In this document: in pieces, positions 34,624 to 54,728 of the stretch
How the letters are laid out: each line of letters opens with the position of its first letter
Numbering within the stretch: position 1 is the first letter of the stretch
NCBI RefSeq assembly: GCF_017901155.1
Contig: NZ_CP072800.1
Location: forward strand, 1,515,283-1,579,282
Length of the DNA stretch: 64,000 nt
Source: Candidatus Thiothrix anitrata
GTDB lineage: Bacteria; Pseudomonadota; Gammaproteobacteria; Thiotrichales; Thiotrichaceae
Direction of reading: 5' to 3'
The notes under the pieces: generated by a model
Seen by the model: the letters and a program-made list of their open reading frames with translations, nothing else
Databases searched by the model: none
What the model was told of the DNA's origin: nothing
Translations under genes and position numbers: made by a program

Positions 34624-35541
34624 GTGGCTTATTCACTTAGTCAAATCCGTATTTTTGAAGCTGTTGCCCAGTATGAAAGCTACACCCGTGCGGCAGAAAA
34701 GCTCTACATGACCCAACCCGCCGTTTCCATGCAAATAAAGCAGATGGAAGATGAAAGCGGTTTGGCACTGTTTGAGCGGCAGGGCAAAAAGATGTGCCTT
34801 ACCCCAATTGGCAAGGAAGTGTTGCACTACGCCAGCCGCGTGTTGCAAGCGCACAATGACATGCTGGGCGCAATGGAAGAACTGAAAGGCGCGAAAGGCG
34901 GGCATTTGGTGGTTTCCGTTGCCACTACTGCCAATTATTTCGTGACCCAACTCTTGGCGGAATTTTCTCGCCAACAGCAGGACATCAATATCACACTGGA
35001 TGTCACCAATCGCCACACCTTGTTGGATCAGTTGGAAAATCACGAACCGGATATGGTCATCATGGGTGAGCCGCCCAAAGGTCACGGTTTGCAATCCGAG
35101 CGATTGATGGCAAACCCGCTAGTGGTGATTGCAGCACCGAACCATCCGCTGGTGGGTGTTGAACGCCAGCTTTTGCTGAGTGATGTCTTGGCGGAACGCT
35201 TTATCGTGCGCGAAAAAGGATCAGGGACACGCAGCGCGATTGAGCGTCACCTGCATAAACACAATGCCAGTTGCAAAAATACGCTGGAAATGCGCAGCAA
35301 TGAAACCATCAAACATGCCGTTGAAGCAGGGTTGGGATTGGGAATTGTGTCGTTGCACACGATTCAGCCAGAACTGGATAGTGGACGGCTGGTGATGTTG
35401 CCAGTGGAAAACTTCCCAATTCGTCGCCATTGGCATGTGGTAATGCGCAAGGGCAAACGACTGTCACCAATTGCACGAGAATTCAAACGCTTTGTTATGA
35501 GCGAAGCACCGCGTTTCGTCAGAAACCTAGCGGCAACGTAA
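34624..35541 (+). CDS. cbbR: LysR-type regulator CbbR (copy 1)
   Basis: A 305-residue LysR regulator: winged helix-turn-helix at residues 1-65 (YTRAAEKLYMTQPAVSMQIK) and a periplasmic-binding-protein-like sensor domain (about 90-295). It starts at GTG, right after the candidate operator. Divergence from cbbL is the classic CbbR position. CbbR proteins sense metabolites such as RuBP, PEP or NADPH. The C-terminal half closely matches the third copy at 56224-57138 (GLGLGIVSLHTIQPE in both). Confidence 0.93.
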   Translation: MAYSLSQIRIFEAVAQYESYTRAAEKLYMTQPAVSMQIKQMEDESGLALFERQGKKMCLTPIGKEVLHYASRVLQAHNDMLGAMEELKGAKGGHLVVSVATTANYFVTQLLAEFSRQQQDINITLDVTNRHTLLDQLENHEPDMVIMGEPPKGHGLQSERLMANPLVVIAAPNHPLVGVERQLLLSDVLAERFIVREKGSGTRSAIERHLHKHNASCKNTLEMRSNETIKHAVEAGLGLGIVSLHTIQPELDSGRLVMLPVENFPIRRHWHVVMRKGKRLSPIAREFKRFVMSEAPRFVRNLAAT

Positions 35542-35694: not shown

Positions 35695-37161
35695 ATGGAT
35701 CCGCTAATCCTTTTATTGCTATTGCCTGCTGTAGGGGCGGGGGTTGTGGCTTTATTGCCCGATCAACGCCCACACTTGATCCGTCATACGGCGATTGGTG
35801 TCGCAGTCGTGACCCTGCTGTACGCCTTCAGTCTGCTTGCCAATTTTTCGTTTGATAATCCGCAAATTCAATTTTATAGCTATCATGTTTGGAATGAACG
35901 GCTAGGCACATCATTTGCGGTGGGCGTGGATGGTTTGTCATTACCGCTGGTTTTGCTGACCACGGTGCTGGTGCTGATGGCGTTATTGGCTTCGCACATG
36001 ATCAACCACCATGTCAAAGGCTATTACCTGCTGATGTTGCTGTTGGAAGCCGCCACGCTGGGGGTCTTCATGGCGCAGGATTGGGGTTTGTTCTACGTCT
36101 TTTGGGAGCTGGTGCTGATTCCGCTGTTTTTCCTGATTGACCGCTGGGGTGGTAAAAACCGTCAGACGGCTGCCTTGAATTTTGTGTTGTATACGATGGG
36201 TGGCTCGGTCTTCATGTTGTTGGCGTTGCTGGTGCTATTTGATGCCACGCCGTCACACAGTTTCAGTTTTGCAGCAATGGCAGAAGGTGCAAAACACTTA
36301 TCTGCCAATGAACAAGTGCTGATTTTCCTCGGCTTATTGATCGGCTTCGGGGTAAAAATGCCCATTTTCCCCTTACACGGCTGGCTACCGTTGGCGCACG
36401 TGGAAGCCCCTAGTCCGGTGAGTATTTTGCTGTCGGGAATTTTGTTGAAAATGGGGTCGTATGGCTTGTTACGGGCAGTGGGTATTCTGCCAAGTGCTGC
36501 CGTTTTTCTGCAAACGACGCTGTTTGTTATTGGCGTAATCGGCTTGCTGTATGGCGGTTTGCTGGCATGGCGGCAAAGCGATATGAAAAAGATGATTGCC
36601 TATTCCTCGGTCAGTCACATGGGCGTGGTGATGATTGGTATTGCCACCCTGAATGTTCAGGGCATTACCGGCGCGGTTTATCAAATGGTTGCCCACGGTT
36701 TAGTGGCAGGCGCAACCTTCATGCTGATTGGCTTGCTGTATGAGCGCACCCACACCCGCGACATTAACGATTACGGCTCACTGATTAACGTGACCCCACG
36801 TTTTGCCTTCCTGATCATTATGGCATTCGTGGGCGGGGTGGGTTTGCCGAGCACGGCGGGTTTTGTGGCGGAATTGCACGTACTGATCGGCGGTTTCCAG
36901 ACGTGGGGTTGGGCAATTGTGCTGTTGTCGCTGGGGGTGTTGATTACGGCAACTTATAGCATTCGTACTGTGAAACATTTGTATACCGGTCCGGTGCGGC
37001 TGGATATGCAACAAGTGGAAGACTTGCGCCCCTTGGAAATGGTCGCAGCGGGTAGCTTGATTGTCGGCACGATGTTGTTGGGCTTTTACCCCGCACCGCT
37101 GCTGGATATGATGCAAGTGTCGGTGCAACATTTTGTGGCGGCAATAGGGTTGTTGCAGTGA
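35695..37161 (+). CDS. NuoM-like membrane subunit of the DAB operon (first)
   Basis: A membrane protein of 488 residues with about 14 helices, related to complex I subunit NuoM and Mrp antiporters. The ATG at 35695 gives MDPLILLLLLPAVGAG, the normal NuoM start; an earlier ATG would add an untypical leader. The pumping residues are kept: Glu in FYVFWELVLIP (helix 5), Lys in FGVKMPIFPLHGW (helix 7) and Lys in LLKMGSYGLLR (helix 8). It stands at the head of the DAB operon and its stop overlaps dabA. It probably adds ion transport to the carbon pump. It is not part of a nuo operon. Confidence 0.85.
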   Translation: MDPLILLLLLPAVGAGVVALLPDQRPHLIRHTAIGVAVVTLLYAFSLLANFSFDNPQIQFYSYHVWNERLGTSFAVGVDGLSLPLVLLTTVLVLMALLASHMINHHVKGYYLLMLLLEAATLGVFMAQDWGLFYVFWELVLIPLFFLIDRWGGKNRQTAALNFVLYTMGGSVFMLLALLVLFDATPSHSFSFAAMAEGAKHLSANEQVLIFLGLLIGFGVKMPIFPLHGWLPLAHVEAPSPVSILLSGILLKMGSYGLLRAVGILPSAAVFLQTTLFVIGVIGLLYGGLLAWRQSDMKKMIAYSSVSHMGVVMIGIATLNVQGITGAVYQMVAHGLVAGATFMLIGLLYERTHTRDINDYGSLINVTPRFAFLIIMAFVGGVGLPSTAGFVAELHVLIGGFQTWGWAIVLLSLGVLITATYSIRTVKHLYTGPVRLDMQQVEDLRPLEMVAAGSLIVGTMLLGFYPAPLLDMMQVSVQHFVAAIGLLQ

Positions 37162-40100
37162 GTGTGCCCGAACATTCCCAACAGCATTCACACGATTTTC
37201 ACCACCTGCTGGCGCATCTGGAGCACATTTTGCCGGGTCAAGCTCCGCTACGCGACTTTGTGCATCACAACACCCTGCACGGATTGCAGCACCTGCCATT
37301 TCCACAGGCACTTAAAACCGCTCATGAGATAACCGGCACTTACGGTTATTGGCCAGCGGAAAAATTTCGGGAGCAATTTCAGCGGGGACGCATTAATACG
37401 AGTGACTTACGGGCGGTATTGGCAGCGGATGCGGCCCTTGCCAGTGAGGAACGGGTTTTCACCCACAGTACCGGCAATGTGTGTCGAGGGGATATTTACC
37501 AAACGGCGCTAACCTGCCCCATCAAGCCCATTGCCCCCAGCCAGTTTGTGTGGGAAGTAGAAGAAAACAAGGTTCTGGATCGCGATGGCGAGCGCTGGGC
37601 GGCGTGTTTGGCAGCGTTGCAATTGGATCACGCTTTACTGCATTCTGAAGACCTGCTGAATTTCACCCCGCAACGCGCAGCACGGTTGTTTGCCGCGCAG
37701 CTTGAAGATCAGGCAGAAGACATCGGTGCACGGGTAACGCATGAGGCGCATGAGTTGTTGTTACATCTCATCTTGCAAGTGGGTGAAAACTTCACGTTGC
37801 GCGGTTTGTTACAGGCGGTGACAGGTGAGGACATCCTGCACGATATGCGTCCACTGCTGGTGCGTCAGGTCGCTGCTTGGTTGGATCAAGGCATGTCAGC
37901 ATGGCATAACGGTACGGCGGGTGCTAATTTTTTCACGGCTTGGCGCACTGCCAGTCACCATGATTCATTACCGGAGCTGGAAGATTTACCCGACTGGCAG
38001 GAACACCTGTATTCCCTGCCCGATAATGCCGCTGATGCGATTGTCGCGGAATTGCAGCGCATCGGCATTCCGCAAGAGTACTGGGATGGCTATCTGGAAC
38101 GCTTGGCATTGGAACTGCCCGGTTGGTCGGGAATGTTCCTGTGGCGGCATTTCCACCCCGATTACGTCAAAACAGCGGCTGAACACACCGATATGCTCGA
38201 TTACCTCGCGGTACGTTTGAGCATGGAGCACTTGTTCGCACGGCGTTTATGCCGCCGCATCTGGCTGATGGAAGCCAATTTGGGCGATATTCGCGGGCGT
38301 TTCCGCCGCCATCCGGCCGAATTTCTGGTGCGCTATTACACCTTTAACCGCCAGTTGCCGGAATACTTGCTCACCCCGGCACAGCAACTGATGTACCACC
38401 GCCGCCCACGGGTGTACGACGAGCAGCCGTGGGAATTGCTGGCACACCAGATTTGGACGTGGGCGCAAGTTAACGCGGGAAGTGATGAGTTCTCCGCTTA
38501 CAATCACGGCTGGCGTTTGTTTCGCTTAATGCAGCAGTTGCAAGTGGACGCAAGCAGTATCCGCAACCTCACCGCCACGCAAATCCAGACCATTTTCACC
38601 TGTTTGGAAACGCTGGACGACGAACAAAGCGGTTTCCTGTGGTTACAGGCGTATGAACGCCATTACCGCGAGCAAATTTTCAATGCACTGCTCAATAACC
38701 ACGGGCGCGGGATGTGGGAGCAGCGTGAGCAACGCCCGCAAGCACAAGTGGTGTTTTGCATGGATGAGCGCGAGGAAGGCATTCGCCGCCATCTGGAAGA
38801 ATTGAACCCACAAATTGAAACCCTTGGTGCAGCGGCATTTTTCAACCTGCCGATGAACTGGCAAGGGCTGGACGATAACAGTGTCACCAAACTCTGTCCC
38901 GTGCCAGTCACACCCGTGCATTTGGTGCGCGAAATTCCGGCGGATGAGGCTGCCGCATTACGCCATACTCATGCGCGACGCACCCAGTGGCGCAAACGGT
39001 TATTTGCCGGTTTGAATCACGTCACCCGCCACCATCTCTTGCTGGGAACGCTCAGCCAGCTTGCCCTCGCGCCGTTTTCGCTGGGAGTATTGCTGGGTAA
39101 ATCGTACCTGCCCTTAGGGTTCGGGCAATGGGTCAAAAAACTGAGCCGCAAGGTGGATATGCCGATTCCAACCAAGCTGGAATTTATTGCCTTGCAAACG
39201 GATGCGGAACGCTCCAGCCAACACAACCAGATGGGCTTTACCGACACAGAACAGGCAGAAAAAGTCGGTGGTTTCCTGCGCACGATTGGCTTGACGGCGG
39301 GTTTCGCGCCACTGGTGGTGATCATGGGGCATGGCTCAAGCAGCCAAAATAATCCCCATGCGGCGGCTTACGAATGCGGCGCGTGCAGCGGTCGCCATAG
39401 CGGGCCAAACGCGCGGGTCTTTGCGGCAATGGCAAACCGCTCGGAAATCCGTGAGCTATTGGCACAGCAAGGCATTCAAATTCCGGCAGACACGTGGTTT
39501 GTGGGGGCAGAACACGACACCTGCGATGAACACATTCCTTGGTATGACACCGATAAAGTGCCAACAGCTTTACGGGATCAACTCTCCCGTTTGCAAGCAG
39601 CACTGGTTGAGGCTGCCCGCCATTCCGCCCACGAACGTTGCCGCAAGCTGGCATCTGCCCCACGCAAACCCACCTTGGATCAGGCATCACGGCACATTGC
39701 CGGACGGGCATTCGATTACAGCCAAGCCCGCCCGGAACTGGGTCATGCCACCAATGCCAGTGCCTTGATCGGGCGGCGTTCCGCAACCCGTGGCAGTTTC
39801 CTTGATCGGCGTTGCTTCCTGATTTCCTACGACTGCACCCGTGACCCTGACGGCAGGATTTTGGAAAACATCCTGCTGAATGCGGGACCAGTGGGCGCAG
39901 GGATCAACCTCGAATATTACTTTTCCACCGTCAATAACGAACGTTACGGCGCAGGCACGAAAATCACCCACAACCTCACCGGTTTGTTCGGGGTGATGGA
40001 AGGGGTGTTCAGCGATTTACGCACCGGTTTGCCGCAACAGATGATCGAAATCCACGAACCCATGCGCCTGCTGGTGGTGGTGGAGGCAAAAACAGCCGTG

Positions 40101-40352
40101 GTTGGCGAGATTTATGCGCGGCAAGCGCCCTTGCAGGAACTGATCGGTGGCGGCTGGTTGCAGGTGGCAGTGAAAGACCCGGATGCGGCAAGCATTGATT
40201 TGTTTGTGCCGGGGACGGGGTTTGTGCGTTGGGAAGGTAAACGCACCGAGTTGCCCACCGTGCAGCGTTCCGTGGAATGGTATGCGGGGGATTATGGGCA
40301 TTTATCGCCTGCGTTGGTGACGGCGAATACACGTGAGGCGCAATATGCCTAA
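37158..40352 (+). CDS. dabA: DAB inorganic carbon pump subunit DabA (copy 1)
   Basis: DabA (DUF2309) is a peripheral zinc protein with a beta-carbonic-anhydrase-like active site. With DabB it is thought to hydrate CO2 one way, driven by an ion gradient. The 1064 residues exceed the roughly 830 of Halothiobacillus DabA2. The zinc-site pattern is complete: Cys534 and Asp536 in FCMDER, His725 in MGHGSS and Cys740 in YECGACSG. The His-to-Cys spacing of 15 equals that of the characterised protein. It starts at GTG overlapping the NuoM-like stop. Confidence 0.95.
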   Translation: MSVPEHSQQHSHDFHHLLAHLEHILPGQAPLRDFVHHNTLHGLQHLPFPQALKTAHEITGTYGYWPAEKFREQFQRGRINTSDLRAVLAADAALASEERVFTHSTGNVCRGDIYQTALTCPIKPIAPSQFVWEVEENKVLDRDGERWAACLAALQLDHALLHSEDLLNFTPQRAARLFAAQLEDQAEDIGARVTHEAHELLLHLILQVGENFTLRGLLQAVTGEDILHDMRPLLVRQVAAWLDQGMSAWHNGTAGANFFTAWRTASHHDSLPELEDLPDWQEHLYSLPDNAADAIVAELQRIGIPQEYWDGYLERLALELPGWSGMFLWRHFHPDYVKTAAEHTDMLDYLAVRLSMEHLFARRLCRRIWLMEANLGDIRGRFRRHPAEFLVRYYTFNRQLPEYLLTPAQQLMYHRRPRVYDEQPWELLAHQIWTWAQVNAGSDEFSAYNHGWRLFRLMQQLQVDASSIRNLTATQIQTIFTCLETLDDEQSGFLWLQAYERHYREQIFNALLNNHGRGMWEQREQRPQAQVVFCMDEREEGIRRHLEELNPQIETLGAAAFFNLPMNWQGLDDNSVTKLCPVPVTPVHLVREIPADEAAALRHTHARRTQWRKRLFAGLNHVTRHHLLLGTLSQLALAPFSLGVLLGKSYLPLGFGQWVKKLSRKVDMPIPTKLEFIALQTDAERSSQHNQMGFTDTEQAEKVGGFLRTIGLTAGFAPLVVIMGHGSSSQNNPHAAAYECGACSGRHSGPNARVFAAMANRSEIRELLAQQGIQIPADTWFVGAEHDTCDEHIPWYDTDKVPTALRDQLSRLQAALVEAARHSAHERCRKLASAPRKPTLDQASRHIAGRAFDYSQARPELGHATNASALIGRRSATRGSFLDRRCFLISYDCTRDPDGRILENILLNAGPVGAGINLEYYFSTVNNERYGAGTKITHNLTGLFGVMEGVFSDLRTGLPQQMIEIHEPMRLLVVVEAKTAVVGEIYARQAPLQELIGGGWLQVAVKDPDAASIDLFVPGTGFVRWEGKRTELPTVQRSVEWYAGDYGHLSPALVTANTREAQYA

Positions 40353-41907
40353 CGAATTACTCCTATTAATCCCCGGTTTCCCCTTTCTCGCCGCTATCTG
40401 GATTGTCCTCGGCTTCATCTTCGGCTGGAACCGGGGCGAAAAAGGTGAACGTGAAACGGCTTTTGTTGCCGTTACTGCCAACACCCTGAGCCTGCTGATC
40501 ATGTTGGGATTGGCGGTTTACGATTTCACCCACGGCGCACCGGGCTATGTCGCGTTGTTTCCTTGGCTGCAAAGCGGTACGTATCAGGTTTTCTTCAGCC
40601 TAATGCTGGATACCCTAAGCTTAAGTTTCGGGGTGGTAATGGCGACCATCAACCTGCTGGTGGTGCGCTTTGCGGTCAATTACCTGCACCGTGAAGCCGG
40701 TTTCCAGCGGTTTTTCATTGTGATGTCGCTGTTTTCCTGCGCGATGTTGCTGATTGTATTATCAGGCAGTGCCTTGCTGGGCTTTATTGGCTGGGAAATG
40801 GCAGGCATCAGTTCCTACATGCTGATTGCTTACGCATGGCAGCGCGACACCGCGACCGAAGGCGCAACCCGTGCGTTTGTCACTAACCGTTTCGGCGATA
40901 CCGGCTATTTGTTCGGGATGTTCATTGCCTTTACCGCGCTGGGCAGCACCGAGTGGAATGTCTTGCTGCAAGATCATGCTGACAAAAACATTTCCGGCAT
41001 GGTGCTGGGCATTATGACATTGGGCTTCATGCTGGCGGCACTGGTGAAATCCTCGCAGTTTCCGTTCAGTGCGTGGATTACCCGTGCGCTGGAAGGCCCG
41101 ACCCCATCGAGTGCGGTATTTTACGGCGCGGTAATGGTTCATGCCGGTATTTACCTATTGCTGCGCCTTGAACCCTTGATCGAACAAGTGCCGCTGCTGG
41201 GTAATATGCTGCTGCTGATCGGCAGTTTAACCGTGTTGTATGGCTGGTTGGGGGTGCAGGTGCAAACCGACATTAAAAGCTCACTGATCTTTTCCACCCA
41301 ACAGCAAACCGGCTTGATGCTGATTGCTATCGGCTTGGGCTGGTATACCGTCGCCGCGATTCACATGGGGCTGCACGCGATGTGGCGGGCGTATCAGTTC
41401 CTGCATTCGCCGTCTTTTCTGCAACAAACCGGCTGGCAAGCGGCAAAACCTGTCCCTGCGTGGTTACGCAAACAGCATTGGCTGTATACCGCTGCCCTCC
41501 AGCGTTTCTGGTTGGTGCCACTGGAAAACTGGTTGCTGGTGCGCCCGACCGAAGCACTGGCACGCGAGGCGCAAGCCTTCGATTCCCGCGTGATTGACCG
41601 CATGACCGGCACGCCTTCACACAGCAATATGCTAACCACCTTGGCGGAACTGCAAGCCTTCCAGCAAGGCAAGTTGCGGCTGGAAAGCGGCATTGGCAAA
41701 GGCTCAGGTGTACTCGGCAAACTGATGCAGTGGGTCGCCGAACAAATGGAGTGGTTGGAAGACCGGCTTTTGTTGAAAAAAGGTGGCGGCGCACTGGGCG
41801 AACGCTTGCGTCAGTTGGGGGAAAACCTCGATCTGGTGGAGGAATTGCTCTCCCAACCGCGCTACCTGATGGTAGTGATAGCGGCAACCATCGCCGTTAT
41901 TTTGTAG
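40345..41907 (+). CDS. dabB: DAB inorganic carbon pump membrane subunit DabB (copy 1)
   Basis: An integral membrane subunit (520 residues) related to NuoL/MrpA but shorter. It should supply the cation flow that drives DabA. The ATG at 40345 lies inside the last codons of dabA. The ion-path residues are present: Glu in GFIGWEMAGISS, Lys in ALVKSSQFPFSAWI and Lys in QTDIKSSLIFST. The last 150 residues form a soluble helical tail (about 360-500) as in other DabB. It is followed 13 bp later by the second dabA. Confidence 0.93.
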   Translation: MPNELLLLIPGFPFLAAIWIVLGFIFGWNRGEKGERETAFVAVTANTLSLLIMLGLAVYDFTHGAPGYVALFPWLQSGTYQVFFSLMLDTLSLSFGVVMATINLLVVRFAVNYLHREAGFQRFFIVMSLFSCAMLLIVLSGSALLGFIGWEMAGISSYMLIAYAWQRDTATEGATRAFVTNRFGDTGYLFGMFIAFTALGSTEWNVLLQDHADKNISGMVLGIMTLGFMLAALVKSSQFPFSAWITRALEGPTPSSAVFYGAVMVHAGIYLLLRLEPLIEQVPLLGNMLLLIGSLTVLYGWLGVQVQTDIKSSLIFSTQQQTGLMLIAIGLGWYTVAAIHMGLHAMWRAYQFLHSPSFLQQTGWQAAKPVPAWLRKQHWLYTAALQRFWLVPLENWLLVRPTEALAREAQAFDSRVIDRMTGTPSHSNMLTTLAELQAFQQGKLRLESGIGKGSGVLGKLMQWVAEQMEWLEDRLLLKKGGGALGERLRQLGENLDLVEELLSQPRYLMVVIAATIAVIL

Positions 41908-41920
41908 GAAAACACCGATA

Positions 41921-44900
41921 ATGACTCACCACAATCAGGCACATACCGACCCATTGGCGCAGTTGCGTGAAGCGATTGCGGCGCTGGATACGGTATTACC
42001 CATACAAGCACCGTTGCAGGATTTTGTGCATTTTAATCCCCTGATGCATTACGAACACCTGCCGTTCGAGCAGGCATTGCGGGCAGCCCATGCCGATAGC
42101 GGTTCACTCGGCTATTTGCCTGCCAGTGAATACCGGCGTTTTTTCCGTGCCGGGCGTATTACCCGTCATGATTTATTGACGGTGTTAGCGGAAGAGCCGG
42201 ACAAATGGGCAGACCGGGAACTGTATGTCAGCGCACTGAGCAATGATGTTAAGGCAATCAGTTTCCAACAAATGCGCTGGCAAGTGGAAGAAAACCATGC
42301 ATTAGAGCGTTTTCAAAGCGATGTAGCCTTTGAGCAGCGCGACAAACTGCTGGCAAACAGCGGGCAGACGGAAGCCGAGGCGATTCAGGCATTGTGGGAA
42401 ACGTGTTTGCAAAAGCTGGAGCTGGATTACGCCTTGCCCCACCCCGAAACCATGTTCAATTTACCCTTGAGTGACCTTAACAGCGTGTGGGATCGCCTCA
42501 AGCAGCAAGAGCAATACGGGCAAACCATTGCCGATGCGGAAACGTTTATTCACGCCGAAAGCCGTCACCTGTTACACCAGTTGCTGGATGAAGTCGGCAC
42601 ACGGATTACTGTGCGTGGTTTGTTGTGCCAACTCGCTGACGTTGATGTACTGGAACAAATGCTGCCCTTGCTGGATCGCCATTTCGCCAGTTGGCTGGAT
42701 CAGGGCATTGCAGCGATGAATCCCCAAGCAAACGGTTTTTACGCTTATTGGCGCGAAGCCACTCTACATGACATCACCCTATCGCTGCACGGGCTGGATA
42801 ACTGGGCAGACCATATCGAATCCCTGCACCCTGACCCATTGGAAACCATTCACCAAGAATTGATGCGCTTGGGCATCGAAAAAGCGGATTGGGCGGGCTA
42901 CCTGCGAACCTTGGCGTTGGAATTACCGGGTTGGTCGGGAATGTTCAACTGGCGAGCTAAAAACCCGCACTATTATGGGCTAACCACCCCCGTGAGTCTG
43001 GAAGATTACCTTGCGGTGCGGCTGGTGCTGGAACACCTGTACTGCCGCCATTTCACCAGTGAACACTGGCAGATCAATGCCAGTCTGCCCAATATTCGTG
43101 GTTACTTCCATCAGCATCAGGATGAGTTTTTCGTCCGTTATCACGCCTACAACAGCAATTTGCCTGAATACCTGCAACACATTGCCCAGCAATTCCTCAA
43201 TACCGAGGAAGACGTGCAGCCACACGAATGGCACCAACTGGCGCACCAGATTCTTACTTGGAAACTTGCCCCGGAAACCATCCTGCCCATGGGAACGGAC
43301 ATTTACCGCAAGGCATGGCGGCTGTTCCACCTAGCGCAACACATGGCTCTGGATGCCAAGGCAGTGGCACAACTGGAACGGACGCGGATTGAACACATGC
43401 TGGCAATCCTCGAAGCACTCGATGACCCGCATACCAGTGGCTATTTGTGGTTACGCGCTTACGAACACCACTACCAAGAAGAAATATTCAGCGCGATTTT
43501 AAACAAGGAAACCGCGCCAGCACTGTCTGCCCCGCCCGCCGCGCAACTGATTTTCTGTATGGATGATCGTGAAGAAAGCGTTCGCCGCCATCTGGAAGAA
43601 ATCGCCCCGGATATAGAAACCCTTGGCGCAGCCGGTGTCTTCGGCTTACCCAACAACTGGCATTCACTTGACGCACCGCGCCCGCTGAAACTGGCACAGC
43701 CGGTGGTCACTGCGGTTCACGAACTCCACGAAACGCCGACCGCAACCGCACAGCAACGCCTGCCCAACCATGTACGCCGCTTGCGTTTACTGAATTCACT
43801 CAAACACCTTAAAAATCACCGGATGCGCCACAGCATTTGGGGCACGGCATTAAGCCTGCCGCTACTAGTCCCGTTTGCCATCTTGGAAATGCTAGGGCGC
43901 AGTGTCATGCCCGCCACTTACCAACGCTTGCTGAGCAAGGTACAACGGCGTAGCAGCGTGCCATTGCAGACACGTGTGGCGTACACAGCGACACAAGTAC
44001 TGGAATGCCCAAGCGGTGATCACAACCAAATCGGTTTCAGTGCCGATGAAAAAGTGGCAAAAGTAGCCGCTTTTCTCAAGCTGACCGGCTTTACCAGCGG
44101 TTTTTCCCCGTTGGTCGTACTGATGGCGCACCGCTCGCATCACCTGAATAACCCGCACATACTCGGCTACGGCTGTGGCGCGTGCAGCGGGCGTTTCGGG
44201 GGACCAAATGCCCGCGCCTTTGCAAGCATGGCTAATGAAGCGGTGGTAAGGGCGCAACTCGATGCCCAACACGGTATTCACATCCCTGCAAGCTGCTGGT
44301 TCATTGCCAGCGAACACGATACCAGCAGCGATGACATCGACTGGTTTGATACCGACCTGATTCCGGCAAGCCACCAAGCCGTGTTCCAACGGGTGTGTGC
44401 CGTGACCGAGCAAGCAGCACAGCACTCGGCACAAGAACGTTGCCGGAAATTTGCTTCTGCCAACCATCGGTTTAGCCCACAACAAGCCAAACACCATGTG
44501 GAAGGGCGTGCTGCCTCCCCCGATCAGGTGAGGGCAGAACTGGGGCATCAAGGCTGTGCGGTTGCGTTTATCGGGCGGCGCGAACTCAGCAAGGGCATTT
44601 TCTGGGATCGGCGTTCCTTCCTGATTTCCTATGACCCGCACAACGATCCTGACGGTAAATTGCTGGAAGCGCAGTTGCAAGGCAATGGCGTCGTCGGGGT
44701 CGGCATCCAAATGGATTATTACTTTTCGCGGATGCAAAACGGTTACTTCGGCTCAGGCAGCAAAGCCACCCACAATCTGACCGGCTTGTTCGGGGTGATG
44801 GAAGGGGGAGCCAGCGATTTGCGTACCGGGCTTGCCCAGCAGATGGTGGAATTGCACGAGCCGATGCGCTTGTTAGCCATTGTGGAAGCCGACATTGCTA

Positions 44901-45145
44901 CCTTGGTGGCCATTTACCAGCGTCATGACTATTTGCGTTTATTGCTGGATAACGGTTGGGTGTTACTGGCAGCGAAACCGCCGGAACGTCAGGAAATTCA
45001 CCTGTTCCAGCCCGGCAAGGGGTTTGTGCACTGGCAAGGCGCAGTGCAGCCATTGCCCAAGGTAGCCTCATCGCGTGACTGGTACGCGGATCATGATCGG
45101 TATTTGCCGCCAGCGGCGATTCAGCGGGAGGTGGCTCATGCCTGA
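41921..45145 (+). CDS. dabA: DAB inorganic carbon pump subunit DabA (copy 2)
   Basis: A second full DabA of 1074 residues in the same operon, clearly diverged from copy 1. The zinc-site residues are Cys546 and Asp548 (FCMDDREES), His737 (LMAHRSHH) and Cys752 (YGCGACSG), again 15 apart. The gene is not a recent duplication, because alignment with copy 1 shows substitutions throughout. It therefore likely has a distinct partner or affinity. It overlaps the second dabB. Confidence 0.95.
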   Translation: MTHHNQAHTDPLAQLREAIAALDTVLPIQAPLQDFVHFNPLMHYEHLPFEQALRAAHADSGSLGYLPASEYRRFFRAGRITRHDLLTVLAEEPDKWADRELYVSALSNDVKAISFQQMRWQVEENHALERFQSDVAFEQRDKLLANSGQTEAEAIQALWETCLQKLELDYALPHPETMFNLPLSDLNSVWDRLKQQEQYGQTIADAETFIHAESRHLLHQLLDEVGTRITVRGLLCQLADVDVLEQMLPLLDRHFASWLDQGIAAMNPQANGFYAYWREATLHDITLSLHGLDNWADHIESLHPDPLETIHQELMRLGIEKADWAGYLRTLALELPGWSGMFNWRAKNPHYYGLTTPVSLEDYLAVRLVLEHLYCRHFTSEHWQINASLPNIRGYFHQHQDEFFVRYHAYNSNLPEYLQHIAQQFLNTEEDVQPHEWHQLAHQILTWKLAPETILPMGTDIYRKAWRLFHLAQHMALDAKAVAQLERTRIEHMLAILEALDDPHTSGYLWLRAYEHHYQEEIFSAILNKETAPALSAPPAAQLIFCMDDREESVRRHLEEIAPDIETLGAAGVFGLPNNWHSLDAPRPLKLAQPVVTAVHELHETPTATAQQRLPNHVRRLRLLNSLKHLKNHRMRHSIWGTALSLPLLVPFAILEMLGRSVMPATYQRLLSKVQRRSSVPLQTRVAYTATQVLECPSGDHNQIGFSADEKVAKVAAFLKLTGFTSGFSPLVVLMAHRSHHLNNPHILGYGCGACSGRFGGPNARAFASMANEAVVRAQLDAQHGIHIPASCWFIASEHDTSSDDIDWFDTDLIPASHQAVFQRVCAVTEQAAQHSAQERCRKFASANHRFSPQQAKHHVEGRAASPDQVRAELGHQGCAVAFIGRRELSKGIFWDRRSFLISYDPHNDPDGKLLEAQLQGNGVVGVGIQMDYYFSRMQNGYFGSGSKATHNLTGLFGVMEGGASDLRTGLAQQMVELHEPMRLLAIVEADIATLVAIYQRHDYLRLLLDNGWVLLAAKPPERQEIHLFQPGKGFVHWQGAVQPLPKVASSRDWYADHDRYLPPAAIQREVAHA

Positions 45146-46691
45146 TGTGTTGTTATTACTGATTCCCGGTCTGCCATTGCTGGCCTTTGGCGTGATCGGG
45201 TTATTGACGTTGTTTCGTTGGAACAAAGGGGATGCCGGTGAACGCTTAAGCGCACGCATTGCCTTGGGTGTGGGGCTTGTCAGCCTGTTGCTGGTATTGT
45301 GGGCAGATGTTGCCTATTTCGCCAGCCCTGCGCCGCATGTGCCGCTCTTGCCCTGGTTACATAGCGGGGTGTACATCACCAGTATCAGCATGACGGTGGA
45401 TGGTTTAAGCCTGACGTTTGCCACGCTGATTGCCGTCATCACGCTGTTGGTGACGCGGTTTTCGGTCAATTATTTGCATCGGGAAGCCGGTTTCCAACGC
45501 TTTTTCATGGTATTGATGCTGTTTGTGGCGGCGATGCAATTGATTGCCTTGTCGGGTAGTGCGATTTTGGCGTTTGTCGGCTGGGAATTGGCAGGGGTGA
45601 GTTCGTTCCTGTTGATTGCTTACAACTGGCAGAGCCGGGTTGCTACGGCAAATGCTGTCAGGGCTTTCGTCACCAACCGCATCGGCGATGTCGGTTTTTT
45701 GCTGGGGATGTTCATGGCGTTTAGCCTGTTCCACAGTACCGAATGGGATGTGATGCTCGTGCCGCAACCGCTGGAATCCGGTTTGCTCATCGGCGTGATG
45801 ACACTGGGGTTCATGGCAGCGGCACTGGTGAAATCGGCACAGTTTCCGTTTTCGGGGTGGATTACGCGGGCATTGGAAGGCCCTACGCCATCGAGTACGG
45901 TGTTTTACGGTTCGATTATGGTTCATGCGGGCATTTTCCTGTTGCTGCGCATCCACCCCTTATTGGAACAAGCCCCCCTATTGCAATACCTGTTGTTGCT
46001 GTTGGGTGGTTTGACGGTGTTGTTTGGTTGGTTGGGTGGTTTGGCGCAAACGGACATTAAAACCTCGCTGATGTTTTCGACGTTGGCGCAAACCGGCTTG
46101 ATGCTGGTAAGCATTGGGCTGGGTTGGTATACATTGGCATTGGTGCATCTGGTGTTACATGCTGTGTGGCGGGCTTACCAGTTTTTGCACTCCCCCTCAT
46201 TTGCCTTGCATACCCAGTGGCAGGCTGCCCCGCGAGCACCGGCATGGTTACGCAAACAACGCTGGCTGCATAATGCTGCCTTGCAACGTTTCTGGTTAGA
46301 CCCGATGGCGGATTGGTTACTGGTGAAGCCAACACTGGCGTTATCACAGGAAACCCAAGTGTTTGACGGGCAGATTCTGGACAAGCTCAGCGGCACACCG
46401 GGGCATTGCTGCGGGATTTCAACCCTTGCGGATATGCAGGCCATGCAGCAAGGGCAAAAACGCTTGGAAAACGCTATCGGTACAGGTTCCGGGTTGCTGG
46501 GCAAGCTGATGCAGTGGGTGGCAGAAAAACTGGAGTGGTTTGAGCAGCGCCTGTTACTACAACGCGGGGCTGGTCAGGCGCAAGCCTTACTGGCTGCGTT
46601 AAGTCGTTATCAGGACAGGATTGAAGGTTTGCTCAGCCAGCCGCGCTATCTGGTGCTGTTGGTAGTGGTGACGCTGGTCGTGATTTTTTAG
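45138..46691 (+). CDS. dabB: DAB inorganic carbon pump membrane subunit DabB (copy 2)
   Basis: A 517-residue partner of the second DabA. The ATG at 45138 overlaps the dabA stop and gives MPDVLLLLIPGLPLL, matching the start of copy 1. Ion-path residues are kept: Glu in FVGWELAGVSSF and Lys in ALVKSAQFPFSGWI. Loop features match copy 1 (ALEGPTPSS). The soluble helical tail is also kept (LLGKLMQWVAEKLEWFEQRL). Confidence 0.93.
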   Translation: MPDVLLLLIPGLPLLAFGVIGLLTLFRWNKGDAGERLSARIALGVGLVSLLLVLWADVAYFASPAPHVPLLPWLHSGVYITSISMTVDGLSLTFATLIAVITLLVTRFSVNYLHREAGFQRFFMVLMLFVAAMQLIALSGSAILAFVGWELAGVSSFLLIAYNWQSRVATANAVRAFVTNRIGDVGFLLGMFMAFSLFHSTEWDVMLVPQPLESGLLIGVMTLGFMAAALVKSAQFPFSGWITRALEGPTPSSTVFYGSIMVHAGIFLLLRIHPLLEQAPLLQYLLLLLGGLTVLFGWLGGLAQTDIKTSLMFSTLAQTGLMLVSIGLGWYTLALVHLVLHAVWRAYQFLHSPSFALHTQWQAAPRAPAWLRKQRWLHNAALQRFWLDPMADWLLVKPTLALSQETQVFDGQILDKLSGTPGHCCGISTLADMQAMQQGQKRLENAIGTGSGLLGKLMQWVAEKLEWFEQRLLLQRGAGQAQALLAALSRYQDRIEGLLSQPRYLVLLVVVTLVVIF

Positions 46692-46700
46692 GAGTGGGAC

Positions 46701-48236
46701 ATGACATTTACTGAAATCCCTAGCCAAACCCCATTATTGGGGATGCTGCAATTGCTACCGCTCATTACCGGGCTAATTCTGGTCAAGGTACGTGGGGAAG
46801 CGGCGGTTACTTTGGGAAGTATTGGCGCACTGGCACAAATGCTGTTGGCGGTGATGCTGTATATCCGTTTTGATACCCAGCAGCCTGCCGGGGTCATGCA
46901 GTTTGCCGAGAGCTTTCCAATCGTTGGGGCATTTCACTACCACGCCGCCGTCGATGGGATTGGTGTGCTATTTGTGTTGCTGACCAGTTTGATTAGCTTG
47001 CTCAGCATTGTATTTATTCTGGTACGTCGCCTGCATGAAAGCTCGATTTTGGCAGTGATGATGGTGATTCAGGCAATTATTACTAGCCAGTTTGTGACCG
47101 TGGATTTGTTGTGGTTCACACTAATGTCGGCATTGGAAGTCTTGCTGATTGCTTATATCACCAAACGCTGGCCGACATTCCACGATATTCAGCCAACACT
47201 GGCGCGTTACCTGCAATTCATGGCGGTGGGAATTGCCTTGCTGGTATTTGGCACTTTGGTATTGGGCTGGAATTATGCTGATGCCAATGACGGACGCTGG
47301 AGTTTCAGCCTGTACGAATTGGCGCAACTGGGCTTTGAGCCGGGCAGTGTGGTGGCGACGCTGGTATTTTTCGCGCTGTTTTACGGGTTGGGAGTGCGAA
47401 TTCCGTTATTCCCGCTGCATGGTTGGCTGCCGAGTTTCATGCACCACGGCAATGTGGCAGTCGCCCCGATTTATTTGCTGGGTTTGAAAGTGGGCATTTA
47501 CGGTTTGCTACGCTTTGTAATGCCGATCGTGCCTCACGCGGTGTGGGAATGGCATACGATTGCGGTGATTTTTGCCAGCACCGGGGTATTCTATGCCGCG
47601 TTTCTGGCAATGCGTGAGCGTAATTTGCGGCGTTTACTGGCGTTTGCCGTGGTCAGTCATACCGGGATTTTGACGATTGGCTTGTTTAGCCTGCACCACA
47701 TGGCATTTCAGGGGGCAATCCTGCTGGCGTTGAATTTTGGTCTGGCGATTTCAGGGCTAATCCTGATGACTGGGATGGTGTGGCAACGCACCCGCACAAC
47801 CAATCTTGATAAACTGGGTGGCTTGTTTGATTACATTCCGGTGGTAGGTTTGGCGTTTTTGGTGGCAGGTTTGGCCGTGGTGGGGATGCCGGGAACACCG
47901 GGCTTTGATGCTGTGCATTTTGTGTTGGAAGGGTCGATCAAGCGTTTCGGGGCATTGGTAACAGTGGCAGCAGCCTTGGGTAACTTGGTGGCGGCTGGGT
48001 TTTTATTGCGTTCGTTTCAGCGGGCGTTTTTGGCACAATCGGGGGGCAATACCAGTCGTTGGGATACCAGCCCCGTACATCCTGAGGAAACCCTGATGGC
48101 GGGTATTGTGATTACGGTGACGGTGGTCGCCGGTTTCTATTCCGCACCTTGGTTGGAGTTGATTGAACAACCTGTCAACGGTTTAAGCAGTTTATTTGCG
48201 GCAATGAGTGGCGATGCGCCCGCAGGAGGTCACTGA
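46701..48236 (+). CDS. NuoM/N-like membrane subunit with altered pump residues
   Basis: A 511-residue membrane protein of the complex I/Mrp antiporter family. Compared with its operon mates, the helix-5 Glu position (WEL) is Ala in LMSALEVLLIAY, with a Glu two residues further on. The helix-7 Lys (GVKMP) is Arg in LGVRIPLFPLHGW. The helix-8 Lys remains (LGLKVGIYGLLR). It may be a structural or modified-channel subunit. It begins 9 bp after dabB and its stop abuts the next gene. Confidence 0.82.
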   Translation: MTFTEIPSQTPLLGMLQLLPLITGLILVKVRGEAAVTLGSIGALAQMLLAVMLYIRFDTQQPAGVMQFAESFPIVGAFHYHAAVDGIGVLFVLLTSLISLLSIVFILVRRLHESSILAVMMVIQAIITSQFVTVDLLWFTLMSALEVLLIAYITKRWPTFHDIQPTLARYLQFMAVGIALLVFGTLVLGWNYADANDGRWSFSLYELAQLGFEPGSVVATLVFFALFYGLGVRIPLFPLHGWLPSFMHHGNVAVAPIYLLGLKVGIYGLLRFVMPIVPHAVWEWHTIAVIFASTGVFYAAFLAMRERNLRRLLAFAVVSHTGILTIGLFSLHHMAFQGAILLALNFGLAISGLILMTGMVWQRTRTTNLDKLGGLFDYIPVVGLAFLVAGLAVVGMPGTPGFDAVHFVLEGSIKRFGALVTVAAALGNLVAAGFLLRSFQRAFLAQSGGNTSRWDTSPVHPEETLMAGIVITVTVVAGFYSAPWLELIEQPVNGLSSLFAAMSGDAPAGGH

Positions 48237-49714
48237 TGGCAATTTTAACCAGTGTGGAATTTCCCTTGCTAAGCTTGTTGTTGCTGCTGTTGCCCTTAGG
48301 GGCAGTCTTGACCGCCGTGTTTCCGGGGCGTGAAGCGCGTTGGGCAGCACTGACGACTGCGGTACTGGCGTTACTGGTAACGCTGGTGATTGTCGGGCAG
48401 TTCGATACCCAACAGGTCGGCTTCCAATTGGTGGAAAAGACCCCTTGGATGGCAGACTTGGGTATCCATTACCTGCTGGGGGTGGATGGCTTGTCGATCC
48501 TGTTCCTGCCGTTTACCGCACTGCTGTTCATCGCGGTGATCTTGGCGTCGTGGAATGCGATCCGCACCTTGCCGCGTTTGTATTTCGCGCTATTGCTGGT
48601 GTTGGAATGCACCATCATGGGCATTTTTACCGCACTGGATACTATCCTGTTTTTCCTGTTCTGGGAACTGACGCTGTTACCGTTGTTCTTCCTGATCAGC
48701 TTGTGGGGCAATGGTGCCAACCGGCGTTATGCAGGGGTGAAATACAGCCTGTTCATGCTGGCAGGGGGCTTGCCGCTGCTGATCGGCTTTGTGGTGCTGG
48801 CAATGCATAACCCCGGCGGCATGAGCTTTTCCTATATCGACTTGCTGCAAGGAAGCCGTGATTACGGGGTGCAGGTGACGGTGTTTTTCCTGCTGCTGCT
48901 GGGGTTTGGGGTGAAAATTCCGCTGTTCCCGCTGCATACCTGGCTGCCGTTGGTGGCACAGGAAGGTCCTGCAACTACCGTGGCATTGCTGACCGGCTTG
49001 AAAGTGGGCGCGTATGGTTTGCTGCGCTTTGCCTTGCCTCTTGCACCGGATGCCGCACGCGAATTCCAATGGGTGTTGGTGGGCTTGGGGATGATCGGCG
49101 TGCTGTATGGCGCAGTCGCGGCATTGAGCCAAACCAGTTTGCGGCGGATGCTGGCGTTTTCCTCACTCAGCCACGTGGGGCTGGTGGTGCTGGGGATTGC
49201 GGCGTTCAGTGTGCAAGGGGTGCAAGGGGCAGTGTTTCAGTTGCTGAATTTCACCCTGGTCGCGGGTGGTCTGTTTCTGATTACCGGCTTTTTGCATCAG
49301 CGCACCGGCTCGACCGAAGTATTGAGCTTGGGCGGGGTGGCGAAATCCATGCCCTTGCTGGCATCGCTGTTCTTCTTCCTCGGTCTGGCGGGGATCGGGA
49401 TGCCTGCCACCAGCGGCTTTCCGGCTGAATTCCTGCTGATTGTCAGCGTGTTGGAAACCCATACCGGCGCGGGTCTGGTGGTGCTGTTTGTGGTGGTGCT
49501 GGGGGCGGCGTATTTCCTCAATTTCTTCCGCAAGGCATTTTTAGGGGAAACGCGCCACGACATTATCCGCGATGCACCGGATTTGAAACCGCGTGAACTG
49601 GCAGTGTTGCTGGTGCTGGTCTTGGTGGTGCTGGTGTTCGGGTTCTATCCGCAAGCGATTTTGGATGTGACGGAAACCAGCAGCCAGTATTGGGTGAGTT
49701 TGATGTTGCCCTGA
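48236..49714 (+). CDS. NuoM-like membrane subunit of the DAB operon (last)
   Basis: A 492-residue NuoM-type protein with a full set of pump residues: Glu in FFLFWELTLLPLFF, Lys in FGVKIPLFPLHTW and Lys in TGLKVGAYGLLR. It starts with the last base of the previous stop (TGATGG), so translation is coupled. It closes the seven-gene operon. A canonical nuo cluster would also carry nuoK, nuoJ and nuoN and the hydrophilic arm, all absent here. So it serves the carbon pump rather than NADH oxidation. Confidence 0.85.
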   Translation: MAILTSVEFPLLSLLLLLLPLGAVLTAVFPGREARWAALTTAVLALLVTLVIVGQFDTQQVGFQLVEKTPWMADLGIHYLLGVDGLSILFLPFTALLFIAVILASWNAIRTLPRLYFALLLVLECTIMGIFTALDTILFFLFWELTLLPLFFLISLWGNGANRRYAGVKYSLFMLAGGLPLLIGFVVLAMHNPGGMSFSYIDLLQGSRDYGVQVTVFFLLLLGFGVKIPLFPLHTWLPLVAQEGPATTVALLTGLKVGAYGLLRFALPLAPDAAREFQWVLVGLGMIGVLYGAVAALSQTSLRRMLAFSSLSHVGLVVLGIAAFSVQGVQGAVFQLLNFTLVAGGLFLITGFLHQRTGSTEVLSLGGVAKSMPLLASLFFFLGLAGIGMPATSGFPAEFLLIVSVLETHTGAGLVVLFVVVLGAAYFLNFFRKAFLGETRHDIIRDAPDLKPRELAVLLVLVLVVLVFGFYPQAILDVTETSSQYWVSLMLP

Positions 49715-49833: not shown

Positions 49834-50256
49834 ATGAAAATTATTCTGGATACCAACATTTTCCTCGGTGCGTGCATCGGTCAAGGCAGTGCAAATAAGC
49901 TGGTCATGCGTTGCTTGCAAGGTGATTTTGTGCCTCTTATGGGGGCAGCGTTGCTGGCAGAATATGAAGATATTTTAGGGCGTGAACATTTGTTTGGTAA
50001 TGCTCGCTTGAGTCAGGCAGAGCGCGAAGAGTTGTTGGACATCTTTTTGGATCACTGCCAATGGACACGCATTTACTATGCTTGGCGACCTAATTTACGT
50101 GATGAGGGCGACAATCATTTGGTTGAATTAGCAGTTGCTGGGAATGCACGGTATCTGGTGACTTACAATTTGAGGGATTTCAAGAATATGGAATTGAAGT
50201 TTCCTGAAATTCGTATCTGTTCGCCTGAGCAATTTTTTGAAGAGGTGAAAGTATGA
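49834..50256 (+). CDS. PIN-domain toxin
   Basis: A 140-residue PIN-fold ribonuclease of the toxin-antitoxin type. The first acidic residue is in MKIILDTNIFLGA, a second in AEYEDIL, and a third group in DEGDNHLVELA. The order is toxin first, antitoxin second, with a 4-bp overlap; this is usual for this PIN subgroup with ribbon-helix-helix partners. It marks the left edge of the accessory islet between the DAB operon and csoS1D. Confidence 0.85.
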   Translation: MKIILDTNIFLGACIGQGSANKLVMRCLQGDFVPLMGAALLAEYEDILGREHLFGNARLSQAEREELLDIFLDHCQWTRIYYAWRPNLRDEGDNHLVELAVAGNARYLVTYNLRDFKNMELKFPEIRICSPEQFFEEVKV

Positions 50257-50468
50257 GCGCAATTACTTTACGTTTGCCCGATGATAAACACCAACGCCTA
50301 AAAATACTGGCTGAGCAGCGTGGTACAAGTATCAACCAACTGCTGAACGAAATGGCTACACTGTTGCTGGCAGATTTTGATGCAGAAACTCGCTTTCGGC
50401 TACGGGCAGAACGCGGACGTGGCAAGACTGAGCACGGGCTAGAATTGCTGCGCAAAGCGATGGGGTAG
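50253..50468 (+). CDS. Ribbon-helix-helix antitoxin
   Basis: A 71-residue protein opening with ITLRLPDDKHQRLKILAEQ and then GTSINQLLNEMATLL, a typical Arc/CopG-type ribbon-helix-helix. The charged tail (RFRLRAERGRGKTEHG) should wrap and block the PIN toxin. The ATG overlaps the toxin stop, so both are made together. It probably represses its own promoter upstream of 49834. Confidence 0.85.
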   Translation: MSAITLRLPDDKHQRLKILAEQRGTSINQLLNEMATLLLADFDAETRFRLRAERGRGKTEHGLELLRKAMG

Positions 50469-50472
50469 CAAT

Positions 50473-50751
50473 ATGAAAAATTTTTATTATTTTACAACAG
50501 CCAGCATTTTAGTATTTATTTCTGGATGCAGTGTGTCGCCCGGAGAAATGAAATCAACAGGTTCTTTGATTCTTGCTGTGATAGTTTTTCTAGCAATACC
50601 AGGTTTCGCTGTTGTATACATACTCGACTGGATAAGCAGAAAGCACAAAGAATGGGATAACGTGATAGGTTTTCATGCTGTAATGTGGGGAGTCGCTATA
50701 ATTATTGCGGTAATGGCATTAATTGCCAAGGAAATGGGATTTCTGCATTAA
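50473..50751 (+). CDS. Small lipoprotein-like membrane protein
   Basis: Unrecognised, 92 residues. The N-terminus has a signal-like stretch ending in a lipobox-like FISGC (Cys at about 19). Two membrane helices follow (about 31-53 and 66-86). The gene is clearly AT-rich compared with its neighbours (codons AAA, TTT, ATT), a sign of foreign origin. It starts 4 bp after the antitoxin, and its stop lies next to the cbbO remnant on the other strand. Confidence 0.6.
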   Translation: MKNFYYFTTASILVFISGCSVSPGEMKSTGSLILAVIVFLAIPGFAVVYILDWISRKHKEWDNVIGFHAVMWGVAIIIAVMALIAKEMGFLH

Positions 50752-50753
50752 AC

Positions 50754-50881
50754 TCATTCCGGCAACCGCTGCACATTATCCACCACGGTAACGCGCTTGC
50801 CGAAAATATCCCGCACATAGTCGGATCAAGGCTAATGCAACGCCCTTCTCGTCGAGTGCCGTCATCGCAGTGTTTGGTATC
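50754..50881 (-). pseudogene. Decayed 3' end of a second cbbO
   Basis: Read on the minus strand, the sequence gives DYVRDIFGKRVTVVDNVQRL, then PE and a stop. This aligns with the end of intact CbbO, DDYVKRIFGQNNYTVIDHVD followed by RLPE. Further upstream, in shifted frames, come CISLDP (CbbO: CLTLDP) and ALDEKGV (CbbO: ELYATGV). The pieces are joined by at least two small deletions, so the gene is dead. The sequence stops near 50882, at the edge of the ATPase gene's leader. cbbQ2 at 57182 therefore has no intact cbbO beside it. Confidence 0.85.
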
Positions 50882-50940
50882 CCCTCCCGTCTCCGCTATA
50901 CTTGACAGCAGAATTTCACACAAGGAACGGAGCATTTCCC

Positions 50941-53633: not shown

Positions 53634-53644
53634 CGGTATCAGGC

Positions 53645-54634: not shown

Positions 54635-54693
54635 TAAGTCCGCTTTATCGAGAGCATTTACATTTACTTTGGTTAATCCAACTAATATTAACG

Positions 54694-54728
54694 ATTAACT
54701 TTAGTTCATTGTCAAGCTAATTTATAGT
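54694..54728 (+). promoter_or_regulatory. sbtA operon promoter with shared upstream block
   Basis: ATTAACTTTAGTT at 54694-54706 is followed after 16 bases by TATAGT at 54723-54728. The same 13-mer with the same 16-base spacing recurs at 58761-58795 ahead of cbbL2. TATAGT fits a -10 box, and the 13-mer covers the -35 and possibly an activator site. Confidence 0.65.

Follow-up and report, generated by a model that had tools for sequence, protein, structure and literature searches.

The window analysed here, a 64,000-nucleotide stretch of the genome of Candidatus Thiothrix anitrata (contig NZ_CP072800.1, positions 1,515,283 to 1,579,282), carries at 35695-49714 a tight run of seven genes on the forward strand, all with intact open reading frames (ORFs), in the order M1-DabA1-DabB1-DabA2-DabB2-M2-M3. 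We give somewhat better than an even chance to the reading that this operon encodes a five-subunit DAB-type CO2 pump composed of M1, DabA, DabB, M2 and M3, present here with two interchangeable heads. The proposal is built on gene order, subunit clades, residues, missing segments and one gene fusion, which are read directly from the sequences. A seven-gene DAB operon with two DabA, two DabB and three NuoM-like subunits had been predicted from the DNA, and Pfam confirms it: the two large proteins belong to the DabA family PF10070 and the remaining five to PF00361. The predicted divergence of the two pairs holds as well, with identities of 44% between DabA1 and DabA2 and of 60% between DabB1 and DabB2. 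The genes of the operon are as follows.

35695..37161, + strand: M1, NuoM-like, 488 amino acids (aa), with the Glu of transmembrane helix (TM) 5, the Lys of TM7 and TM8, and the Glu of TM12 (PF00361 251 bits, TIGR01972 492 bits, own clade with starred support of 100, residues)
37158..40352, + strand: DabA1, beta-carbonic anhydrase-like, 1064 aa, with zinc ligands and Asp-Arg dyad (PF10070 804 bits, residues, AF2 model)
40345..41907, + strand: DabB1, NuoL-type TM1-11 core without TM12-14 (PF00361/PF00662, AF2, Foldseek, hydropathy)
41921..45145, + strand: DabA2, paralogue of DabA1, 1074 aa, of a second type seen family-wide, zinc ligands present (PF10070 677 bits, tree, residues)
45138..46691, + strand: DabB2, the second DabB, in one starred group with DabB1 of the genus and one near relative (PF00361/PF00662, tree)
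46701..48236, + strand: M2, divergent NuoM-like, 511 aa, canonical TM5 and TM12 Glu lost, TM7 Lys replaced by Arg, TM8 Lys kept (PF00361 121 bits, tree, residues)
48236..49714, + strand: M3, NuoM-like, 492 aa, with the full antiporter-type residue set (PF00361 212 bits, own clade with starred support of 99, residues)

All junctions are overlaps or gaps of at most 13 bp: M1 and DabA1 overlap by 4 bp and M2 and M3 by 1 bp, both DabA genes overlap the DabB gene that follows by 8 bp (ATGCCTAA at DabA1/DabB1 and ATGCCTGA at DabA2/DabB2), and gaps of 13 bp and 9 bp lie between DabB1 and DabA2 and between DabB2 and M2, respectively. The corrected starts of DabB1 and DabB2 are the ATG codons at 40345 and 45138. 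Since all seven genes are of the PF10070 or PF00361 family, the operon has no redox or quinone subunits; small Mrp subunits (B/C/E/F/G) are likewise absent from its seven genes, as are CupA and CupS, the search for CupA being confined to the operon. A PF10070 search of the host genome (one contig, 3.55 Mb) returned no DabA beyond these two, and nine further PF00361 stretches lie elsewhere in it, in a nuoL/M/N locus and in two Mrp-like-looking loci (named from neighbours and lengths).

A conserved unit of five genes

Relatives were collected by scanning named genomes with an alignment of ten M2 orthologues, and the best 80 of at least 558 were kept. The order M1-DabA-DabB-M2-M3 was found in 55 of these 80 loci, 51 of them plain, one in the seven-gene form (L169), one with an extra reversed DabA (L172), one with an extra NuoM-like gene (L207), and one with broken frames (L214). 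Of the remaining 25, 17 are interrupted by a contig end and eight are exceptions: six Methylococcales loci with DabB-M2-M3 only, L173 with M1-DabB-M2-M3, and L218 with M1-M3-DabB-M2. By record title, the loci come from Thiotrichaceae, Sulfuricella, Thiobacillus, Accumulibacter, Rhodocyclaceae, Magnetococcales, Methylococcaceae, Nitrosomonas and Nitrotoga. Some of them are genomes that recur under G handles below (L169 is G340/L317, L226 is L077/G131, and L173 is G335); L173 is titled Aquificaceae bacterium MAG 28, its DabA agrees with that of G335 in place and score, a genome search places G335 in the window's own family, and the title is probably wrong. The closest named match listed is Thiothrix fructosivorans, of the same genus as the window, which has the same seven genes and an M2 that is 79% identical. 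Across the phylum, M2 was found at E <= 1e-110 in 35 of 398 sampled genomes. Judged by gene order, the conserved unit is one of five genes, with one DabA and one DabB.

The five genes are also retained together. DabA was found in 68 of the 274 genomes of a class sample, and all 13 genomes with the five-gene DabA type hold M1, DabB, M2 and M3; within these 13, the M1 of G233, located at a contig end, is a piece of 109 aa, the operon of G094 is spread over two contigs, and the sole DabA of G074 is A2-type and lies on another contig. A fourteenth genome, G051, is divergent and fragmented by contig ends. Among 68 other DabA regions (L093-L160; 19.9 kb at most, many of them truncated by a contig end), none had M1, M2 or M3 as best match; two of these regions, L108 and L141, carry other NuoL/M-type genes. 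In L108 (G025, 2874-14781), a divergent DabA ends a one-directional run of NuoM-, NuoL- and Mrp/NuoN-type genes with four small ORFs, which looks like a whole Mrp-type operon by its putative gene names and possibly links a DabA to an Mrp antiporter.

Of the six Methylococcales loci limited to DabB-M2-M3, five belong to genomes (G276-G280) that hold M1-DabA at another place, and G278 has an intact operon in addition to the split M1-DabA and DabB-M2-M3; for the sixth locus, L229, just a DabA fragment was found. In one other genus (G068 and G199), DabB and M2 are joined in frame as a single 1045-aa ORF, with M1 and M3 present and unlinked. The original prediction offered a larger multi-subunit pump as one of its explanations, and the conserved order, the co-retention after operon splits and the one-genus DabB-M2 fusion all speak for it. 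Two pumps in one seven-subunit machine, however, are not the natural unit: the conserved one includes a single DabA and a single DabB, and A2/B2 is the sole pair in four genomes of the genus.

Alternative DabA/DabB heads

Thirteen genomes of the genus, that of the window included, comprise nine with the seven-gene order and four (G296, G309, G315 and G321) with M1-A2-B2-M2-M3. In the DabA tree, the A2 type forms a single clade of 14 rows (support 100, starred), and A2-type DabA in other genera of the family occurs without a DabB of its own; DabB1 and DabB2 of the genus and the DabB of one relative make up one group of nine rows (100, starred). Because of these genome counts, the A2 clade and the shared DabB group, the DabA/DabB pairs look, as far as sequence comparison goes, like alternative cassettes, or heads, on one NuoM-like frame. 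G074 and G335 (69% complete) carry M1-DabB-M2-M3, and no A1 was found in them.

As origin of the seven genes, a recent tandem duplication was rejected for the DabA part, the tree showing A2 to be an older, family-wide lineage; for DabB2, a recent duplication is plausible from its position in the tree. A lone A2-type DabA, with no DabB in the fetched region, was observed in relatives of the family (L076, L309, L311 and L312). G289, G309 and G315, of the same genus, have a further high-scoring DabA, and that of G309, the one fetched, groups with the 3-gene type. In two of the nine seven-gene genomes, a large gene is inserted between DabA1 and DabB1. The inserted genes (L299, 6719-10738; L300, 9545-13189) encode P-loop NTPase-like proteins of 1339 and 1214 aa, so named on the GKPGSGKST motif alone, and adjoin a small repeat-rich ORF.

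Residues and structure of the DabA-DabB core

Residue functions were taken from DAB2 (DabA2-DabB2) of Halothiobacillus neapolitanus, described in the available part of PMC13144422 as a vectorial CO2 hydratase (PDB 9rd0/9rd8/9rd9). According to the same text, the DabB of this type has 15 TM helices including TM12-14, and its TM12-13, together with the DabA finger carrying the required Glu444, form the probable outer half-channel.

The 55 DabA rows compared are 43 of the five-gene kind (5 A1, 9 A2, 23 five-gene, 4 lone and 2 split), 9 classic and 3 others. Equivalents of the H. neapolitanus DabA2 zinc ligands Cys351, His524 and Cys539 and of Asp353 are present in all 55, DabA1 and DabA2 included, and the zinc sites of both DabA proteins are thus complete, as had been predicted; Arg355, of the Asp-Arg dyad, is present in 54. 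The finger position Glu444 is Glu in 9/9 classic DabA and in 0/43 of the five-gene kind, 25 of which, among them DabA1, have no acid within ten columns of it. At the position of Leu658, 42 of the 43 rows, again with DabA1, have His, and 9/9 classic rows have Leu. The AF2 model of DabA1 (pLDDT 81) retains the two finger helices (596-625 and 627-650); Foldseek with this model gave no match at E <= 0.001 in a library that ends in April 2026 and may lack DAB2 entries.

DabB is NuoL-like and adjoins DabA, the exceptions among relatives being lone or split DabA. Its profile matches NuoL over TM1-11 only (probability 100, columns 3-362), and the AF2 model of DabB1 (pLDDT 82) was aligned to NuoL by Foldseek over about 360 residues with a root mean square deviation of 2.0. 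The C-terminal part of DabB1, about 150 residues, is largely non-membrane, with a single terminal hydrophobic segment. In 19 of 22 DabB rows, a single hydrophobic segment occurs within the last 150 or so residues, and in three there is none; by hydropathy, classic DabB has three or more C-terminal windows in 7/8. Among 24 DabB rows, Ile151 is replaced by Glu and Lys347 by Arg in all, and His260 by Tyr in 23; Ser256, Lys310 and His343 are kept in 24/24, His339 in 22/24 and Ser316 in 16/24. The complex-I lateral-transfer gating set Glu/Arg/Asp/Lys is complete in 23 of these 24 rows, versus 0/8 in classic DabB.

These results bear on the alternative that the operon holds two ordinary two-subunit DAB pumps, A1B1 and A2B2, next to a separate M1-M3 antiporter. 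The same PF10070/PF00361 pair works alone in DAB2, both zinc sites are intact, and one genome (G070) has a related pair with no M genes found. However, the DabB segment and the finger Glu of DAB2's probable half-channel are both missing, DabB and M2 are fused in one genus, the five genes stay together through operon breaks, and the operon lacks any other Mrp-type subunit. We therefore consider this alternative unlikely, and prefer the five-subunit pump.

The NuoM-like proteins M1, M2 and M3

The original prediction named a grouping of the NuoM-like proteins with canonical nuo genes as an outcome that would speak against it. A tree of 154 PF00361 proteins (quick method with SH-aLRT support only, some rows being duplicates) places each of them in a clade of its own: M1 with 17 rows (100, starred), M2 with 21 rows, including the L085 and L214 parts (100, starred), and M3 with 19 rows (99, starred). 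M2 and M3 fall in one group (99, starred) that also holds the gene of G051. Canonical NuoM forms a clade of 16 rows (100, starred), and of the three proteins M1 alone shares with it, and with four further NuoM-type rows, a fork of support 91 that is not starred and is left unresolved.

The TM5 Glu, TM7 Lys, TM8 Lys and TM12 Glu are kept in 16, 16, 17 and 16 of the 17 M1 rows and in 19, 19, 19 and 17 of the 19 M3 rows, respectively. In M2, the TM5 and TM12 Glu are kept in 0/21 rows, TM7 Lys is replaced by Arg in 21/21, and TM8 Lys is kept in 21/21. The count of five ion-pump-like subunits given originally was hence too strong, both DabB proteins being shortened NuoL types and M2 being without both pump glutamates at the canonical positions.

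The fork shared by M1 and canonical NuoM agrees with another explanation, in which M1-M3, DabB and DabA form an alternative complex I tip that docks on a NuoN/H core and is driven by electrons like the cyanobacterial NDH-1MS, the set paralleling NdhD3, NdhF3 and CupA (PMC6981117, available part). NuoH argues otherwise: among 30 set-bearing genomes it was not found in four, scored 117-127 bits in four and 398-426 bits in 22, so that canonical-strength NuoH is absent in 8/30. The NuoH-poor genomes include the 99% complete G051 and Methylomonas lenta (G287), the latter with an intact five-gene operon. Docking on complex I in the manner of NDH-1MS is on this ground largely rejected; it is unlikely as a general rule, and we hold it to be very improbable as an explanation of the operon.

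Proposed mechanism

In the five-subunit pump that we propose, DabA would bind CO2 at its zinc site and hydrate it to bicarbonate in the cytoplasm, and DabB, which retains just the TM1-11 half of NuoL, would hold DabA via the finger helices. M1 and M3, with their complex-I-type proton residues complete, would give the outside proton path that DabB and DabA have lost, and M2 would be a charge-altered connector adjoining DabB. Protons would enter through this arm, pass sideways to DabB and make the hydration one-way, as in DAB2. The five proteins would form one complex that lacks a redox module and has more than one proton channel for each head, and would draw on the proton motive force, with protons and not sodium as the coupling ion. 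We infer that the pump runs inward and at more than one proton per CO2, which would allow steeper accumulation or function at low driving force.

The three NuoM-like subunits may be needed because part of the DabB/DabA proton channel is missing: with DabB TM12-13 gone and the finger Glu gone or moved, and with the gating pairs, the zinc site and the greater part of the inner half-channel preserved, M1 and M3 are the candidates to carry the protons. M2 is placed beside DabB because of the DabB-M2 fusion, and the proton motive force is taken as the energy source because the operon has no redox subunit and 8 of 30 genomes lack canonical-strength NuoH.

Several observations weigh against this reading. 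The 80 loci were retrieved through M2 and offer no independent sample for M2 itself, and L218, located at a contig end, has a deviant gene order. The finger position is Asp in four of the 43 five-gene-kind DabA rows, and all 14 A2-type rows have an acid within ten columns of it. In DAB2, substitution of Leu658 left growth unimpaired (PMC13144422, available part). In DabB, Ser316 is Ala in 8 of 24 rows, and the similarity of the DabB tail to the NuoL tail is, at 14.7%, too weak to be used. M2 has acids shifted by two residues, with Glu after the TM5 site in 9/10 and Asp or Glu before the TM12 site in 10/10 printed rows, and may, on these residues, still conduct despite the loss of the canonical Glu. 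L214 is doubtful as a further DabB-M2 fusion, since the usual DabB tail with its stop is found in another frame and its M3 is also broken, which points to a probable frame error. In G215 (77% complete), M2-M3 are present and DabA was not found. In G070 (78% complete), the DabA (L094) lies just outside the five-gene clade and has no acid near the finger position, its partner DabB is also without TM12-14, and a search of the genome for M1-M3 found none, with one canonical-level NuoM only; either the M genes of G070 were not sequenced, or such a DabA/DabB pair would work without the arm.

Genomic neighbourhood and role in CO2 supply

The operon adjoins one RuBisCO locus, and a second RuBisCO, followed by csoS2, lies 9 kb away. 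Beside the LysR-type gene directly 5' of the operon, genes in the opposite direction encode the RuBisCO large subunit, CbbS (named by position), a CbbQ-type AAA protein and a von Willebrand factor A (VWA) protein. Other features of the neighbourhood are listed below.

34624..35541, + strand: LysR-type regulator, CbbR as inferred from its position, directly 5' of the operon and divergent from cbbL (LysR Pfam domains)
53004-53633: bacterial microcompartment (BMC)-domain protein
54966-55907: SbtA bicarbonate transporter

The last two belong, within about 10 kb (window positions 53004-63201), to a further CO2-concentrating locus. It also holds a pair of LysR genes, another gene of CbbQ type and, followed by csoS2, the second gene for a RuBisCO large subunit. 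Just 3' of the operon (49834-52550), a PIN-domain gene is accompanied by one for an AAA_21 ATPase, which overlaps a small gene; the group has the look of a toxin or defence system. Two genes considered as carboxysome genes, at 29057-31402 and 27829-28977, were reassigned by Pfam to a VWA protein (CbbO by position) and an LCIB-like protein. The latter (27829-28977, - strand) is of the LCIB/LCIC-like carbonic anhydrase family at 24.8 bits, against a cut-off of 25; its homologue in L210 scores above the cut-off (33 bits), that in L077 has no match, and of the 137 loci scanned, 7 have such a homologue next to the operon (L077 and L226 being the same genome).

Among 27 set-bearing genomes, eight of which lack a completeness figure, BMC shell genes were found in three, all of the Thiothrix genus treated here, and in none of the other 24; RuBisCO was found in 19 and not in eight. 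In view of these counts, the five-gene set is independent of carboxysomes and probably supplies bicarbonate more generally.

The same survey touches on a reverse or reversible pump, in which the bicarbonate/CO2 chemistry of DabA drives ions out by way of several channels, or sodium couples, as argued for MpsAB. The original suggestions of different ions and of running backwards are speculative. The eight genomes in which RuBisCO was not found, some of unknown completeness, would suit such a role, and so would the His found in 42/43 rows in place of Leu658, a position that is Gln or His in canonical beta-carbonic anhydrases (PMC13144422, available part); the COGNAT authors, moreover, proposed in 2017 multi-ion export by DabA-family operons with several membrane subunits (PMC5700660, available part). 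Yet DAB2 accumulates dissolved inorganic carbon from CO2, as the available text of PMC13144422 reports, and the operon stands beside a LysR gene and a RuBisCO locus. We regard a reverse or reversible pump as improbable, and retain the inward-driven CO2 pump.

More tentatively, and with less than an even chance, the five-gene systems may represent a class of vectorial carbonic anhydrase whose head gave up its outer half-channel (TM12-14 and finger Glu) and relies on a NuoM-like arm, with the DabB ion-pair gating kept; judging from the sequences compared, such a class would be redox-free and multi-proton, with swappable heads, and would occur mainly in bacteria without carboxysomes.

Comparison with known systems

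The DAB family is described, in the available part of PMC13144422, in one-, two- and three-subunit forms. With DAB2, the operon shares a PF10070 DabA with the same zinc ligands, the same Asp-Arg dyad and, judging by the model, the finger helices, and a PF00361 DabB with a NuoL-like cytoplasmic half-channel. It differs from DAB2 by three added NuoM-like subunits, by a DabB that lacks TM12-14 and carries Glu, Tyr and Arg in place of Ile151, His260 and Lys347, respectively, and by a DabA with no Glu at the Glu444 position and His at Leu658. DAB1, which the same source gives as a three-subunit DAC of DabA1, DabB1 and a small membrane protein, likewise has a DabA-DabB core that is frequently close to RuBisCO genes, but its DabA and DabB form distinct clades, and DAB1-type loci (3-gene loci, so named because about 700 bp separate the DabA and DabB genes) have no M1-M3 gene.

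Extra NuoM copies in a complex-I-type arm are also a feature of complex I with duplicated NuoM, reportedly described by Chadwick in 2018. That complex is part of a redox enzyme and is not known to include a DabA. It is mentioned in the available text of PMC7784846.

For operons of COG3002, COG1009 and COG1008, the COGNAT work of 2017 reported that nuoM genes are often present where ybcC, of the DabA family, lies upstream of a nuoL homologue; several ions were suggested to be moved, and the function was then unknown (PMC5700660, available part). The occurrence of NuoM genes in such operons had thus already been reported, and the five-gene set is a variant of the known DAB kind. What goes beyond that account, as far as its available part extends, is the fixed five-gene set, the subunit clades, the residues, the fusion and the missing half-channel. 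In the literature searched, which lacks key subscription papers, no account of the five-subunit set was found; this version of DAB is widespread and little studied.

A parallel in design is the cyanobacterial NDH-1MS (NdhD3-NdhF3-CupA), in which, too, a cytoplasmic zinc subunit hydrates CO2 on a NuoL-type subunit next to a NuoM-type one, and for which lateral proton coupling has been proposed; unlike the operon described here, it has in CupA a fold that differs from known carbonic anhydrases, and it is redox-driven via a quinone module (all from the available part of PMC6981117). A similar lateral coupling between subunits would operate in the five-subunit pump, and by this analogy the best reading of the arrangement is that of a redox-free analogue of NDH-1MS. 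If true, complex-I-type antiporter subunits would have been recruited to power a non-redox reaction, which bears on whether CO2 pumps can be geared to different ratios of protons to bicarbonate, and bacteria without carboxysomes would possess a bicarbonate supply system.

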